From Gammaproteobacteria bacterium (GTDB taxonomy: Bacteria > Pseudomonadota > Gammaproteobacteria > Steroidobacterales > Steroidobacteraceae): 32,348 nt of DNA. Shown here piece by piece: positions 12,547-22,186 of this stretch; positions within the stretch are counted from its first letter, which is position 1; each line of letters begins with the position of its first letter. The notes under the pieces were generated by a model. The model searched no databases and was not told where the DNA came from. It saw only the letters and a list, made by a program, of their open reading frames with translations. The stretch is from assembly GCA_003132425.1 (NCBI GenBank), contig PKXS01000124.1, positions 92,472 through 124,819 of the forward strand. The letters are read 5' to 3'. A program made the position numbers and the translations under genes.

Positions 12547-13180
12547 AAATCGATTCGAGATATGCGACCAGGGCCTGCATTTGGTCCCTGGTCAGATTTT
12601 TTACCACTCCGTGCATGACGGGCGCGGTGCGCAACACGCTTTGTATCACCAGCAGCTGCCTGAGCAAGTACGGCGCGTGTTGGCCCGCAAGGCGCGGAAA
12701 AGTGGCCATACCTTGGGCATTTGCGCCGTGACAGCTGGCACAAGGCGGAATCTGTTGGGCCGGCGCGCCTTGGTCAAACAAGCTCTTTCCCTGCGATATG
12801 AGCGCCGGATTGCCGGGCTTGCCTGCCGCGGCGGGCTGCGCGGAAAAATAGGCAGCCAGAGCCGTGATATTCGCGTCGCTCAATTGCGAAGCCATGCCCC
12901 ACATGTAAGCCTGCGCGTCGGGGTCGGCACGCGACTGGTCTTTGAACGCGTGCAGCTGCAATTCAATATAGGGCGCCAACTGCGCGGCCAAGTTCGGAAA
13001 AGTGGGAGACACACTGCGGCCATTGATTCCATGACAAGCAGCGCAGGTTTCAATGGTCTTGTGTAGATCGGCCTTTTGTCCAGCATTCATCGTGTCGGCA
13101 GGGGCAGCTGCACCGTGGACCATACCCGCGAAGCACAGTGACGTGCCGATTGCGAGGGCGAGAATGTAGCGAGAGTTCAT
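12545..13180 (-). CDS. Diheme cytochrome c (c4-like), periplasmic
   Basis: Signal peptide MNSRYILALAIGTSLCFAGMVHGAAA; two heme motifs CAACHG and CASCHG; ATG overlaps the stop of the upstream gene (TGATG). Confidence 0.88.
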   Translation of the reverse strand: MNSRYILALAIGTSLCFAGMVHGAAAPADTMNAGQKADLHKTIETCAACHGINGRSVSPTFPNLAAQLAPYIELQLHAFKDQSRADPDAQAYMWGMASQLSDANITALAAYFSAQPAAAGKPGNPALISQGKSLFDQGAPAQQIPPCASCHGANAQGMATFPRLAGQHAPYLLRQLLVIQSVLRTAPVMHGVVKNLTRDQMQALVAYLESI

Positions 13181-14583
13181 CAGAAATTCAGCCAAACCAA
13201 CAAGTACGCGGTGTTGTTGTTGCTGGCGTTGCGGCCGCTGCCGTCATAATTGGTGCTTTGGCCGTTGAATTTCTGATAACCGACATACTGTGCCTGTAGT
13301 TTCGTATTGAGCCACGGCAGGTAATTCACCTCGAGTATGTAGCCATTGGTGTCGGGACTGTTGTTTGCGCTGCCGGTGAGCGGTGCGACGGCATAGAGAA
13401 GCGCATCGGTACTTCCGGTTGTGCTGAAGTATCCGATCGACCCGCCAATCCGTCGCTGGTAATAGTATTCGCCGGTCAGCTTGAGGGTCTTTAGATTGTT
13501 GTCGGCGTTGGCGGCAAATCCATCGAGAACGCTGGCATTGAGGGTTTGGTGCTCGCTGATATACGTCGCAAGGGCCGTGAACAAATGATCTTCGCCGATG
13601 AATTGATACTGGATGTCCGCAGCGGCGTCCCTGAACTTATCGGTGACGCCGGCGAGCGCTGTGCCGTTTCCCGGATGAACGCTGGCATCCAAGCCGAAGA
13701 CGCCGACCTCCAGGGAATTGCGGTCCCAGCGTTGCTCGTACGCCAAGCGCCAGTAAGGCGCCGCCCCCTGGACCACGTTGGCCTGGGTGCTGTCCAGAGG
13801 ATGTGCGCCCCCCGGTATCGCCGAAGTGTAATCGGTTATCTCAGCGTAAAAGTGATCATCGAACCACGCATAAACGCCGAGGCCTCCCACGCTCTGGCCG
13901 AAGCCTCCGGCACCGCTGTCGACCTTCGCCGAGGTACTGGAGCCGGGCGCGGTACTGCTATTGGAGTACGGAAACCCCCAGGCGGGCGTGGTGTTCCACA
14001 CGTCTTGCACCGTTGGGTTGTTATTCAGGGTGACGCCCACAATCAAACTGTGGCTGTTGCCGTCATTGCCGCCGAACGACAAATGGTGTGCATAGCGAAT
14101 GTCGGTGTTGTCGAGTCCAAAGTGATCTTCAACGCCGTCGTAGGTGAGCTGCACGAAAGCCCCCAGTCCATCGGCGATTTTGCCAGCGTAAAAAAAGCTC
14201 ACCTGTTGTGGAAAGTTCAGTTCGCCGTCTTTTGCGAGGGCACCAGTGATCGCGCTGTCCGGCAGCGCCTTACTCGTATGGGTATAAGAAATCTGCACCA
14301 TTAGACTGACGGGCGGTATGGAATTGAGCGCGAGCGTCTGATGATTCGTGGTGTCAATTCCCGTGACTTGTTTGATGTTGTCGAGCACGTAGCCGTTGAG
14401 CTTGAACTCCCGACCAAAAGGCGTCAGCTCCGGAAACACGGTGTGACACGCGGCGCAGGCCATGCCCGTTTGGCGAGCGAAGCTGGGTACCGCCCAGCTA
14501 GGAGTGACCGTCGCGCAAAACAATGCCAGCGCGAGAAGCCCCAGGCGCCCGCCGGGCATCTCAACGCGGCGACAGCGGATCAT
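13180..14583 (-). CDS. Monoheme cytochrome-outer membrane beta-barrel fusion (Cyc2-like architecture)
   Basis: Signal peptide then PSFARQTGMACAACHTVFPELTPFGREFKLNGY (single CxxCH), followed by ~400 aa of alternating barrel-like sequence ending in a C-terminal aromatic (YLLVWLNF). Confidence 0.7.
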   Translation of the reverse strand: MIRCRRVEMPGGRLGLLALALFCATVTPSWAVPSFARQTGMACAACHTVFPELTPFGREFKLNGYVLDNIKQVTGIDTTNHQTLALNSIPPVSLMVQISYTHTSKALPDSAITGALAKDGELNFPQQVSFFYAGKIADGLGAFVQLTYDGVEDHFGLDNTDIRYAHHLSFGGNDGNSHSLIVGVTLNNNPTVQDVWNTTPAWGFPYSNSSTAPGSSTSAKVDSGAGGFGQSVGGLGVYAWFDDHFYAEITDYTSAIPGGAHPLDSTQANVVQGAAPYWRLAYEQRWDRNSLEVGVFGLDASVHPGNGTALAGVTDKFRDAAADIQYQFIGEDHLFTALATYISEHQTLNASVLDGFAANADNNLKTLKLTGEYYYQRRIGGSIGYFSTTGSTDALLYAVAPLTGSANNSPDTNGYILEVNYLPWLNTKLQAQYVGYQKFNGQSTNYDGSGRNASNNNTAYLLVWLNF

Positions 14584-14620: not shown

Positions 14621-14750
14621 AGTCAGACGGCCACACCGCCGGCCGCACCGCAAGCTACCTTGAATTATCGTCGCCGTATGTGCGCCACCGCACGAACGAC
14701 CGGGGCGTCGGCGCGTGGTCCGCCACGACATCGGCTGGACTTTCACTGCA
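14621..14750 (+). pseudogene. Degenerate 3' remnant of an L-lactate permease gene
   Basis: Plus strand reads ...PPAAPQAT..(frameshift)..VAVCAPPHERPGRRRVVRHDIGWTF, compared with intact LctP KPVAPQTASVGVSTSKFVRKEGDVIRHNMGWTF; DNA ccgccacgacatcggctggactttca vs ccgccacaacatgggctggactttca differs at 2 positions. Confidence 0.5.
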
Positions 14751-16377
14751 GCAAGCCGAAAACCGCCACGCTTACCGTCGTGCCGACGAACACTTTGCCG
14801 TCGGCAACGGTCGGCGTGATGTATTTATTGCCGGCGCCAAAGTGATCTCGATTGTTGGCAGCCTGATTGCTGTTGTAAATCTCATGCCCAAGATTGCCCG
14901 CGTCGTACGCGTGCAGCACGGCTGGACTGACGTTCTCGTGAGCCCAAACGATCGCGTTGGACGTGCCGTTCGCGGACACGCTCGGTGCGCTGCCGGGATA
15001 GGCGAACTGCGCAGTGCTCTGCGACTTCGGCGCCGCCGATAATTTCGCGCCGGCGAGCGCAAACGCCTTGAGCGTGGCGCCGGAATCCGCGTAATACACA
15101 TAGCCGTTGAAGTACGCCGGCGTGGACCAGACTCCGGACGGCACGGCCGCGTTTACCTGCTGGTAGATGTTGTTCGAGGATGCGCTGAACTTGCCCATAG
15201 AATCCCGATCGACGATGTAGATGTTGCCGTCCTTGCCGGCGCCGACCATTAGATGCCGGACCGTGCCGGTGGCATCGGTCAAGTCCGGCAGCAGCAGCGC
15301 ACCGCCCGAGCCGAGATCCTCATCGACGGCCGATTCGGCCACCGTGTTCGACAATGCAAAATAATCCGCGACGCTCATGGCGCCGCCGGCGGTGGAGATC
15401 TTGAGGAACGAATTGCCGTAGTCCTGGCCGCTCGGAAACCCGTTCGCATCCAGCGTCGTGTCGAAGACGCCGTTTGCCGTCAATAGGTAGATATTGCCCG
15501 CCGCATCGGCGGCCGGGCCGCCGCCGCTCATCCAAATCGCCGGGCCCTTGCCGCCGCTGTTCGGCGCGACATTGAGAACGGCGCCGCGGATCAGCGAGCT
15601 CTCGGCATAGGCGATGATCCAGCCCATATAGGGTTGGTTGTCGCAATGCGAGGTCCAACTCGTGTAGACCGAACCGTTGAGCAGGAGCAGGGCGGCCCGC
15701 TCTTCGTACTGCCCGGGATCAAAGGTGCTGGTTCCGCCGCCGGAGGTGGGATATGTGGCCGCAATTTCGGCAGGCCCATTCAATAGTTCGGCGCCGCTGG
15801 CGAGGTCGAGCGCGTGCAGCCGCTGGTGATAGTTTCCGGCGCTGTCCTTCGTCATCGCGACCACGTAAATGGTGCCATGCACGCCGGCGCTGCGATCGAT
15901 CACCGGTGTCGCGGTGATGCCGATTTCCGGCGTCACCTGTCCGCAGCCGTGCGCATCACTGGTGGTTTCTGCGGATCCGAGCAGCGAGACCTGCCACAGT
16001 GTCGCGCCGCTATCGGAATCGAAAGCGTAGACCGAATCGTGTTCGGTCGCCGCGTACAGCACATTGTGAGAGGCGCCCGCTATGCTGAAGTGCGATACAT
16101 AGAGCGGCTGCGCGTCCACCTTGCCGTCCACCGCCAAATTGCGCAGCAGACCGAAGCTCGCCGGGGCGACGTTGGCGAGAGTGAGAGTCGTTTCGGTAAG
16201 ATTTTGACCGCTGCGATTCAAATCATTCTTGTACGTCGACACATCGGTGCCCGGGCCCGCCGCGGGCGGCGGGGTCATCGCCGGAGGGGCAATGGAGGTC
16301 CCAGGGGAACCGCCGCCGCAGGCAGCGAGGAGCGCAGAAAGAATCGCCGTGAATGCGAGCTTAGCGTGCTGGTGCAT
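14743..16377 (-). CDS. PQQ-like beta-propeller repeat lipoprotein
   Basis: Lipobox-like LLAACGGGSPG; repeated propeller blades (YAATEHDSVYAFDSDSGATLWQVSLLG; GSVYTSW; IYIVDRDSMGKF; YVYYADSGATLKAFAL). Confidence 0.75.
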   Translation of the reverse strand: MHQHAKLAFTAILSALLAACGGGSPGTSIAPPAMTPPPAAGPGTDVSTYKNDLNRSGQNLTETTLTLANVAPASFGLLRNLAVDGKVDAQPLYVSHFSIAGASHNVLYAATEHDSVYAFDSDSGATLWQVSLLGSAETTSDAHGCGQVTPEIGITATPVIDRSAGVHGTIYVVAMTKDSAGNYHQRLHALDLASGAELLNGPAEIAATYPTSGGGTSTFDPGQYEERAALLLLNGSVYTSWTSHCDNQPYMGWIIAYAESSLIRGAVLNVAPNSGGKGPAIWMSGGGPAADAAGNIYLLTANGVFDTTLDANGFPSGQDYGNSFLKISTAGGAMSVADYFALSNTVAESAVDEDLGSGGALLLPDLTDATGTVRHLMVGAGKDGNIYIVDRDSMGKFSASSNNIYQQVNAAVPSGVWSTPAYFNGYVYYADSGATLKAFALAGAKLSAAPKSQSTAQFAYPGSAPSVSANGTSNAIVWAHENVSPAVLHAYDAGNLGHEIYNSNQAANNRDHFGAGNKYITPTVADGKVFVGTTVSVAVFGLLQ

Positions 16378-18633: not shown

Positions 18634-19596
18634 CTATAAATCAAGCACCAGGCTCTTGCAGCGCGCCCGCGACACGCAGGGCATGATGCTCTTGGCCTTG
18701 GCCTTGTCGGCGTCCGAGAGATAATGGTCGTTGTGCAGCAGCTCGCCGTCCAACTCGAGCACGCGCGTATGGCAAAAGCCGCAGACGCCGCCGCGGCACA
18801 GGTAGGGCACTTCGACGCCGGCAGCCTCGATGCTCTCGAGCAGGCTGCGGTCCGGCGGCACGTGCACGCTCAGCTTGGATCGGGCGAGGAACACCTCGAA
18901 GGCATCGCCAACGGGCGGAGCGCTGAATTGCTCCCAGTGAATATGGCTGTCGGACCAGCCATAGGCCCGCGCGGTCGAGATGACATGCTTGATCATGCCG
19001 GCAGGTCCGCAGACGTAAACATGCGTACCCAGCGGCTGGTTCGCGAGCAGTGCATCGAAGTCGATCAGTTGCTGTTCGCTGTCGTAGTACATGCGCACCC
19101 GGCCGCCCTCGCGCCGCTGCAGCCTGTCCAAAAATGCGGCGTGTTCGGGCGAGCGGACCGAATAATGCAGCTCATAGGGTACATCGCCGCCGTGCAAATC
19201 CTCGAGCTGCGCCAGTATCGGGGTAATTCCGATCCCGCCGGCTATCAGCAAATGCTTGCGCGCGATCTTATCGAGACCGAATAAATTCACCGGGTGGGCG
19301 ATTTCCAGGCGACTGCCGACTCGCACGCTGTCATGCATGAAATGCGACCCGCCGCGAGATTCCTCTATGCGGCGCACGCCGATTTCGTAAGCCCCAAGCT
19401 GATGCGGCGCGCTGAGCAGAGAATAGGGATTGCGGTGCACGCGGGTAGCGCCGTTCATGACCACGATGATGTGCGAGCCCCCGGAGAATGCCGGGAGGTC
19501 GCCTCCTTCGGGCAGCGCGAGCTTGAAATGCTTGATGAGGGGCGTGATCTGCTCCACCCCCACGACTTGCACGGCGATGGTCTGCGCATCGTTCAT
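18634..19596 (-). CDS. dmmB: PDR-type oxidoreductase with C-terminal plant-type [2Fe-2S] domain (DmmB-like)
   Basis: Flavin/NAD domains (HLLIAGGIGITPILAQLEDL; YVCGPAGMIKHV) then CRGGVCGFCHTRVLELDGE...MPCVSRA ferredoxin motif. Confidence 0.85.
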   Translation of the reverse strand: MNDAQTIAVQVVGVEQITPLIKHFKLALPEGGDLPAFSGGSHIIVVMNGATRVHRNPYSLLSAPHQLGAYEIGVRRIEESRGGSHFMHDSVRVGSRLEIAHPVNLFGLDKIARKHLLIAGGIGITPILAQLEDLHGGDVPYELHYSVRSPEHAAFLDRLQRREGGRVRMYYDSEQQLIDFDALLANQPLGTHVYVCGPAGMIKHVISTARAYGWSDSHIHWEQFSAPPVGDAFEVFLARSKLSVHVPPDRSLLESIEAAGVEVPYLCRGGVCGFCHTRVLELDGELLHNDHYLSDADKAKAKSIMPCVSRARCKSLVLDL

Positions 19597-20204
19597 GCGA
19601 ATACCTCCTTGACCGGAGGCAATTCGCCCGGCGCTTCGGCATCGGCCATCACGCCCATATAGGCCGCCAGGCGCCGCGAGTAATGGTCGCGCACCAGCAG
19701 CCAGCGCTCGCAGTCGATGCAGCGCACGATATTGGTCCGCACGTTCTCGGTGGTGGCGCGGCAGTGAATGCAGTACACACGCCGCGCCAGCGAGCCCAAT
19801 TCTTCGGCGCGGACCTCATCTTTATTGAGGTTGAATTCGAGCGCAATTTTCATGGCGAGGCCGATGAAGCTCTCCGGGCCCGCGACATACAGACGCGTGC
19901 CCATCAAGGACCGCGTAAGTACCGCCCGGAATTCCTGCAGCAGCGCCTGGGAGTCGTCGAAGAGGCGCAAACCGGATAGCTTCGGCGCCTCGAACGGCGC
20001 GAGAGTCTCGGCGTCGCAATCGGTGGGTACCAGCAGCACTTGAGTGTTCTTTAGCGCGTGGGGCGCTTCGGTTTGCAACTCTGCCAGCACGCGCAGCAGC
20101 GCGCCGCCGCCGGACCCGAGACCGAGCATGAGATGGTAGCGCCCGTCGCTGTCGGCCTGCAAAGGCGCGTAGACAGGCTTGCTCTTGATTCCCGTGACCA
20201 GCAT
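19593..20204 (-). CDS. dmmA: Dimethylamine monooxygenase subunit DmmA-like protein
   Basis: 203 aa; NAD-binding-like C-half (GTRLYVAGPESFIGLAMKIALEF) plus CIHC...CIDC Cys-pair domain; ATGA-type 4-nt overlap with dmmB. Confidence 0.72.
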   Translation of the reverse strand: MLVTGIKSKPVYAPLQADSDGRYHLMLGLGSGGGALLRVLAELQTEAPHALKNTQVLLVPTDCDAETLAPFEAPKLSGLRLFDDSQALLQEFRAVLTRSLMGTRLYVAGPESFIGLAMKIALEFNLNKDEVRAEELGSLARRVYCIHCRATTENVRTNIVRCIDCERWLLVRDHYSRRLAAYMGVMADAEAPGELPPVKEVFA

Positions 20205-20206
20205 GG

Positions 20207-20374
20207 TTAGGAGCCTATCTGAGTATTCCGCGTGAGCCGCGTTGGCCGGGCGAGGGAGCGGATGCTAGGCGCGCGGCGCAGGCCGTAGCGGGGACTACGG
20301 ACCAGCCGCGCAACACCGCAGACGCCCCTCCCCCGGCCAACCCTTTGGGACCGGGCAGATTTCGCTTCATCCAT
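20207..20374 (-). CDS. Putative 55-aa ORF inside the repeat element (possible leader ORF)
   Basis: AAGGAGG-8 nt-ATG; MDEAKSARSQRVGRGRGVCGVARLVRSPRYGLRRAPSIRSLARPTRLTRNTQIGS; TAA stop at 20207-20209, 2 nt before the dmmA ATG. Below the 60-aa cutoff of the ORF track. Confidence 0.3.
   Translation of the reverse strand: MDEAKSARSQRVGRGRGVCGVARLVRSPRYGLRRAPSIRSLARPTRLTRNTQIGS
20242..20340. repeat. Left nested hairpin arm of the element
   Basis: TTGGCCGGGcGAGGGaGCG pairs with CGCCCCTCCCCCGGCCAA (imperfect); inside it GCGCGGC (20271-20277)/GCCGCGC (20305-20311) and CCGTAG-cgggga-CTACGG (20283-20300). Confidence 0.75.
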
Positions 20375-20443
20375 TGTTGTCGCCTCCTTATTGGGTTTCG
20401 ACCCAACCGCGTCGGCTCCGCCTCGGCTGAAGCGAAATCTGCC
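20354..20443. repeat. Right hairpin arm of the element
   Basis: 16-bp perfect inverted repeat GGCAGATTTCGCTTCA (20354-20369) / TGAAGCGAAATCTGCC (20428-20443), enclosing the tetraloop hairpin TTGGGT-TTCG-ACCCAA (20391-20406). Confidence 0.8.
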
Positions 20444-20479
20444 AGGGTCGCGGCCACGGGGAATACTCAGATAGGCTCC

Positions 20480-22186
20480 TTAGTACACCGCGAGCCGATG
20501 CGTGACCGCGACCACGGCGATCCCCGCCGCTAACACCACGAAGGGCCAGATGCCGGCGCGCTTGATCTGCGATTCGCCGTTGTTGTGGCCCAAATCCTCG
20601 GCCATGTCCGCAGGAAAGGATCCCTTGTCCTGAATATAGTGACGGTAGATGAACACCGGGATGACCAAGGAGCAAAAGGCGAGGCCGGTGCTCAATGTTC
20701 CCACGCCGTACACGTCGGCGCCGAAACCCATAAACGCCAGATTCACGAAGGACAGACACGCGCCGGCCGCCAGAACCCAGGTGGGCGCGCGCCAGGGCCG
20801 CTCTTGCGTGGCGCGATCGAGGCGGTGAATCCAACCGGCATTCAAATTGAGGAAGTTGAAAATCATGTAACCGACATTGGCGGCGCCGATCACGAACACG
20901 GAGTCGGACATCAGCAACAGCACCAAGTTGAAGCACAGGTCCGTGAGCATGGCGTTCGACGGCGCATGATGCCGGTTCACCTTGGACAAGTATTTGGGAA
21001 GCCAGCCGTCGACCGAGGCTTGATACAGCGTGCGCGACGAGCCGGCCATGGAGGTGATCAACGACAGCACCAGCGCGAGAATCAGCATCACGACGACGAT
21101 AGCGCCGACGAAGCGGCCCGCATGCACCATTTTCGCCATGACTGCCGCAACGCCCATGCCGCTGTAGATGTCGGGCGCGAGCATGCCGCCATAGACCGCC
21201 GGCGCCGTCACCCTGCCGGCCGCATCGAGCACCGCGGGCTGGACGAGCGTTCCCAAGCCCAAGAACCCCTGAAAGGCAAAGGGCACCAGGGTGTACACCA
21301 CCACGCACAACAGGCCGGAATAGAAAATGGCCTTGAAGGTGTCCGTCTTCGGGTTCTTCAGCTCCGACGTGTAGCACACGGCCGTTTCAAAACCATAGGT
21401 CGACCAAGCGGCCAGAAACATCCCGCCCGCCAACACCGTAATGCCGGTCATGTTCCAGGTGCCGCTGAGAACATGACCCATGGTGTCGTGCGCCAGCGGC
21501 ACGAGCGGAAAGAAGTTGGTCCTGACGATATCGCCCGTGAGAATAGGGACCACGCCGATCAGAATGAGCGGGATCATCGCCGAGATCCCTAGGATCTTGG
21601 TGGTGTTGGCAGAGCGCAAGATGCCGCCGTCCTGAATGGCTTTGACCGAGAACAAGATCACGGCGCCGAGCAAGAACGCCGCGTTGACGCGCAAGGTCAG
21701 GCCGCTCTTGATGGATCCCAAATCGAGCAGCGTGATCTGCCAGGTGTTGATGAGCGAATCCGGCGCGAAAAGCGCGGTCAAGATGTAGCCGGCAGCCAGC
21801 GCCGAACCGGTGGCTTGCACCGGCGACCAGGCGAACCAGTTGCACCACACGGAGATGGGCGCGATAATTTTGCTATACCTGACCCACGCTATCGCACCGT
21901 ACACCGACGTGCCGCCGGACTTGTTGGGAAACAGTCCGGCGATCTCGGCGTAGGTGAACGATTGAATGAAACCCAGCGCGATCGAGGCCGCCCAGATGAC
22001 CCAAGACAGCTTGCCGACCGTGGCCGCCACCGCGCCGATCGAAAATAACACCAGCGGCGGCACGCCGCTCGCCACCCAGAAGGCGCCGGTCCAGTCGATG
22101 CCGCGTTCGAGACCATCGGCTTGCAGCGCGAGGGCGCTTGCGGTTTCTGCGTTAGAAATGACGGCGTAACTCCTCGGCGATTTCAA
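20480..22186 (-). CDS. APC-family amino acid/amine permease
   Basis: 568 aa polytopic protein; [89 protein letters not shown]. Confidence 0.85.

Follow-up and report, generated by a model that had tools for sequence, protein, structure and literature searches.

A mobile element in the permease–dmmA junction

We analysed a 32,348-nucleotide stretch of a gammaproteobacterial (Steroidobacteraceae) genome, contig PKXS01000124.1 (hereafter the window), in which a 270-bp repeat element separates a trimethylamine N-oxide permease gene from dmmA, which encodes a subunit of dimethylamine monooxygenase. The junction is made up as follows.

20480–22186, minus strand: trimethylamine N-oxide permease gene (NF053774), C terminus intact (..RLAVY-stop)
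20480–20482, minus strand: TAA that ends the permease gene and forms the first copy of the target-site duplication, assigned from the empty sites in relatives
20210–20479, minus strand: whole element, MITE-like (miniature inverted-repeat transposable element), 270 bp; three-way junction of a terminal inverted repeat (TIR) stem and two arms
20460–20479, minus strand: TIR on the permease-stop side (GGAGCCTATCTGAGTATTCC)
20351–20446, minus strand: arm 1 hairpin (stems 20425–20446 and 20351–20372), carrying a Shine-Dalgarno (SD) sequence and both leader ATGs
20241–20341, minus strand: arm 2 hairpin (stems 20326–20341 and 20241–20256), within the leader open reading frame (ORF)
20210–20229, plus strand: TIR on the dmmA side, the same 20 bp on the opposite strand
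20207–20209, minus strand: TAA, second copy of the target-site duplication and stop of the leader ORF
19593–20204, minus strand: dmmA, dimethylamine monooxygenase subunit, without an SD of its own

The identification of dmmA in the original prediction, an earlier reading of the same DNA, is borne out by matches to PF22290, PF22289, and NF041259. By its size, ends, target duplication, and dispersal, the element fits a non-autonomous mobile element, a MITE. It is shorter than the limit of about 600 bp, and its two ends are identical at 20 of 20 positions, with no mismatch and a chance expectation of 0. TAA stands on both sides of it, and in relatives the empty site is a TAC-stop beside the dmmA start. 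A profile search found 78 copies, mostly partial or degenerate, in 8 genomes that all belong to one genus, and no copy turned up outside that genus in 217 genomes from the taxonomic family. The window’s own genome holds a single full copy. A full-length sister copy in another genome of the genus (G014) is 80% identical and folds alike at −182 kcal/mol; the predicted RNA fold of the window element, a three-way junction of the TIR stem, the SD-bearing arm 1, and arm 2, has an energy of −187.7 kcal/mol (z = −12.6).

Duplications of TNA are characteristic of IS5-type and those of TA of IS630-type insertion sequences (IS); a transposase matching the element was not found. Neither the TIR matches in 23 genomes nor a metagenome-assembled genome (MAG) labelled Elusimicrobia contained an autonomous element with the same ends, in assemblies that are fragmented. 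Searches with the element in Rfam gave no match of note, and searches with the element or its ends in plasmid, phage, and IMG/VR sequences gave no match.

The site of insertion can be read from the relatives. In 11 of 11 element-free relatives with dmmA, the permease stop and the start of dmmA are separated by −1 to 5 nt, at junctions that include GTGTACTAGCC-ATG, TACTAA-ATG, and TACTGATG. None has an SD before dmmA, and the original prediction’s statement that dmmA lacks an obvious SD holds for the window as well. Ancestral stop–start coupling between permease and dmmA is likely, because the stop adjoins the start and no SD precedes dmmA in these genomes. The window junction runs through the permease end (RLAVY-stop), TAA, the element, TAA, and CC to ATG. 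Judged by the geometry of the element-free relatives, the element is inserted in the permease stop codon, the TAA is a target duplication that copies this stop, and the 2-nt spacing between leader stop and dmmA is the old permease–dmmA spacing rebuilt.

The element carries a ribosome-binding site and a leader ORF

Three features of the element bear on translation.

20383–20389, minus strand: SD AAGGAGG, separated by 8 nt from the leader ATG that follows; the segment of arm 1 around it is rich in purines and partly unpaired
20207–20374, minus strand: leader ORF of 55 codons, ending TAA CC ATG; the accD and pyrB copies share its frame and start
20215–20370, minus strand: alternative leader ORF of 51 codons from a second ATG; its TAG (20217–20215) lies 10 nt before dmmA

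Re-reading the minus strand gave AAGGAGG (20389–20383), CGACAACA (20382–20375), and ATG (20374–20372), followed by a 55-codon ORF (MDEAKSARSQRVGRGRGVCGVARLVRSPRYGLRRAPSIRSLARPTRLTRNTQIGS) that stops at TAA (20209–20207) and is succeeded by CC and the dmmA ATG at 20204; the coordinates in the original prediction were exact throughout. The second ATG, 4 nt downstream of the first and in a different frame, is the one retained in sister copy L007. Related copies also have the SD, and several of them have the first ATG. Several SD bases are predicted to be unpaired, and in the fully formed stem the dmmA ATG is predicted to be about 70% paired.

Openness of the ORF was rejected as evidence in its own right, because the 55-codon span stays open in 25% of dinucleotide shuffles. 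The leader peptide was likewise rejected as a functional protein: it has no Pfam match, and its sequence is not conserved between copies.

Leader junctions recur at other genes

Copies across the genus were classed by the arm they retain and by their neighbours; the genomes are metagenome assembled, copies of the leader class are few, and the distance criterion was chosen post hoc. Of ten downstream frames searched against NCBIfam, nine gave a match and one, a TPR gene, did not. The distance from leader stop to gene ATG is 2 nt at dmmA, 2 nt at accD, 6 nt at pyrB, and 15 nt at rpoN, and at folK the leader stop overlaps the gene start by 4 nt (accD and pyrB in G020; rpoN and folK in G009). The accD copy, an independent insertion in another species, reads AGGAGGCGACGAGA-ATG and opens a 17-codon ORF ending GGC TCC TAG CC ATG, an ending and frame that match those of the window copy. 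The original prediction had asked whether other copies end just before start codons in the same frame: those at accD and pyrB do, with the same start, those at rpoN and folK end close to or within the gene start, and those in divergent gaps stand farther off.

In relatives that lack the element, no SD precedes accD, and a −10-like box (TAGACT or TTTAATAT) stands a few nucleotides from its ATG, which suggests a leaderless start. In G020, the element sits between the −10-like box and the ATG, so that accD, a presumably essential gene, would then have to use the leader.

At some genes the element appears to have supplied the start codon itself. The element ATG appears to be the gene start in four genes, most clearly bluB, where the BluB profile begins 16 residues past the element ATG with no other start codon in the interval; for hemF, cysT, and the TPR gene, alternative starts are possible.

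The copies are also oriented nonrandomly. Between co-directional genes, those retaining the SD arm (arm 1) point toward the downstream gene by 22:2 (p = 4e-5), whereas arm-2-only copies in the same setting are split 5:6 (Fisher p = 0.006 against SD-arm copies). The SD is still covered by 17 copies, and each of these has a co-oriented gene downstream, 10 in co-directional and 7 in divergent gaps. This bias is best read as selection, since insertion in both orientations does occur. The outer end of the element often abuts the stop codon of the neighbouring gene.

Two side observations concern the upstream regions of these genes. Throughout the genus, accD lacks an SD and a −10-like box lies about 6–8 nt from its ATG (L214–L235), suggesting leaderless translation. 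Upstream of pyrB, G013 and G017 (L241 and L242) read GGGGGCTCCTAACGCAT-ATG and GGGGGACTCCTAGCGCAC-ATG, which resemble a footprint or remnant of an element end.

The insertion probably rebuilt coupling to dmmA

We consider it probable, on comparison of the window with its relatives, that a MITE inserted in the permease stop codon brought an SD and a leader ORF and thereby restored the stop–start hand-over to dmmA. In the ancestor, ribosomes finishing the permease would have gone on to translate dmmA, whose SD-less start stood at a distance of 2 nt from the permease stop. The insertion would have duplicated TAA, left the permease intact, and displaced dmmA by 275 nt, at the same time supplying a strong SD together with an ORF that crosses arm 2 and the inverted repeat before ending at the duplicated TAA. 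Ribosomes on the leader would open the long hairpin beside the dmmA start, an unwinding that is plausible from the modelled fold, and hand-over at TAACCATG would follow by termination–reinitiation or by local unfolding. RNA unfolding and reinitiation are the two accepted models of translational coupling (PMC12548453), and both would fit a leader ending 2 nt before dmmA. Copies whose SD arm faces the next gene may then have been retained between co-directional genes, often worn down to the SD-bearing part.

The first half of the original prediction, that an element-borne leader couples translation to dmmA, draws good support from the comparison: an SD-less abutting start in 11 of 11 relatives, recurrence at accD, pyrB, rpoN, and folK, and the 22:2 bias. 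The second half, that the repeat is a control module for dimethylamine oxidation, is unsupported: no sign of regulation was seen, and the genes downstream of other copies share no function. Probably the element offsets its own insertion by restoring translation, which is the better reading than control.

Several observations weigh against restored coupling. The first leader ATG is absent in sister copy L007, and conservation in the SD columns was not clearly above that elsewhere in the element. A highly stable stem stands next to the dmmA start, which may re-pair locally. The apparently young window copy has no other full copy beside it in the genome and could therefore be poorly tolerated. 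Most copies come from one genome, G009, a gammaproteobacterial MAG from a Centralia soil site, and genes were assigned with a simple home-made codon-usage caller. Finally, in the divergent copies near adk and ffh, the gene starts 44–119 nt past the element, where coupling is unnecessary.

Of the alternatives, the one that fares best, though we judge it unlikely, is a neutral or mildly harmful TA-targeting MITE that landed in the stop codon because TA is scarce elsewhere in a GC-rich genome; the SD and ORF would then be chance or left over from the 5′ end of a transposase gene since lost, with dmmA weakly expressed in this strain. A young insertion is indeed indicated by the identical TIRs and the single full copy, stop codons adjoin copies in both orientations, convergent genes included, and the shuffles show how readily such an ORF stays open; an SD and start about 110 nt from one end of the element could also give the look of an IS remnant. 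Neutral insertion leaves unexplained, however, why the 22:2 bias is limited to SD-arm copies, why leader stops lie beside the starts of accD, pyrB, rpoN, and folK, and why genes start within the element, and an autonomous element with these ends was not found in the genus.

We give still less weight to an action at the RNA level only, in which the TIR stem is cut by RNase III or alters mRNA stability and dmmA is translated without the leader. The very low folding energy of the long stem and the same shape in the sister copy would suit such a role, which has been reported for repeats of similar size and proposed for NEMIS and ERIC (PMC3049150, PMC2229807), but the bias follows the SD arm although the palindromic stem is nearly equal on both strands, and dmmA would be left with neither SD nor coupling. 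A promoter within the element that gives a separate, perhaps leaderless, dmmA transcript is the least probable account: leaderless-type starts do seem to be present in the genus (accD), but the sequence before dmmA is an inverted repeat that occurs in both orientations, and a scan of 20150–20560, which covered sigma-70-type sites and not other promoters, found no promoter-like site (the original prediction had raised one inside the TIR); the element also shows no terminator.

Restored coupling, if correct at dmmA, may extend to the family. Operons limit the sites open to mobile DNA, since splitting two coupled genes by an insertion silences the second of them; an element that brings its own ribosome-binding site, with a leader stopping at the duplicated target, would be a possible answer. 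More tentatively, and with rather more doubt than belief, we suggest that the element is shaped to survive in operons: any insertion at TAA or TAG between coupled genes would rebuild coupling, because the ends complete or copy stop codons and the SD and frame read out through the repeat, and dozens of G009 genes, essential ones included, would start from its remnants. Full, worn, and gene-fused stages are visible within one genus; if this view is true, mobile DNA can replace the translation starts of genes.

Relation to known systems

The closest parallel is with mycobacterial interspersed repetitive units (MIRUs), which are summarised as mobile repeats that insert at start codons and couple their ORF to the gene while barely affecting its expression (Supply et al. 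1997, summarised in PMC12548453). By that summary, the geometry at dmmA, accD, pyrB, rpoN, and folK is of the same coupling type, here predicted from sequence. MIRUs as described there lie at the start codon with a spacing of −4 nt, whereas this element lies in the stop codon with a spacing of +2 nt (dmmA and accD). It is further set apart from the summarised MIRU by its 20-bp inverted ends, TA/TNA duplication, three-way-junction hairpin, strong SD, and gammaproteobacterial host. If the coupling is real, the family would be a second, independent solution resembling that of MIRUs.

In class 1 integrons, ORF-11 of the attI1 site is a short leader of proven function, with an SD 8 nt before its ATG, that lifts the expression of downstream genes lacking an SD; the junction provides its stop codon (often TAG), and its peptide sequence matters little (PMC8876359). 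The likeness lies in a short SD-bearing ORF on a mobile platform, with a junction-supplied stop and an SD-less gene downstream, but attI1 is a fixed recombination site that receives genes, whereas the element is a repeat that inserts itself beside them. ERIC/RU-1, YPAL/RU-2, and the Rickettsia palindromic elements share a length of 100–300 bp, inverted ends, terminal TA, strong RNA hairpins, and gene-fusing frames; the reports on them concern fusions, new peptides, and RNA stability and not an SD leader rebuilt at the insertion site (PMC2229807). BOX elements of Streptococcus pneumoniae are likewise intergenic repeats that give start or stop codons to expressed ORFs, but the ORFs they make are without good SD sequences (PMC3049150). 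The principle is thus already known from MIRUs and ORF-11, and what looks new is a seemingly unrelated SD-bearing family with the same strategy.

Other short elements and neighbouring ORFs

Arm-2-only copies (L104, L023, L119, and L112 in G009; L123 in G003) often lie at convergent gene ends with the repeat abutting a stop codon. Two elements, L053 (G003:C68:13820-13872) and L042 (G009:C26), measure 53–60 bp and are barely more than two inverted ends.

The MAG labelled Elusimicrobia (JACPXA01; L141, L143, L146, G255) contains the exact TIR with a different interior, in about 10 elements of 167–222 bp with the same 20-bp ends. Their duplications are TA or TTA/TAA, those of the 168-bp copies included, and one element lies between a TAA and the next gene, which resembles lptB, in the order TAA, element, TAA ACCCTC ATG.

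Near the dmm cluster of the window, two long minus-strand ORFs of 467 and 544 aa (13180–14583 and 14743–16377) have no family match or only a weak PQQ-repeat match.
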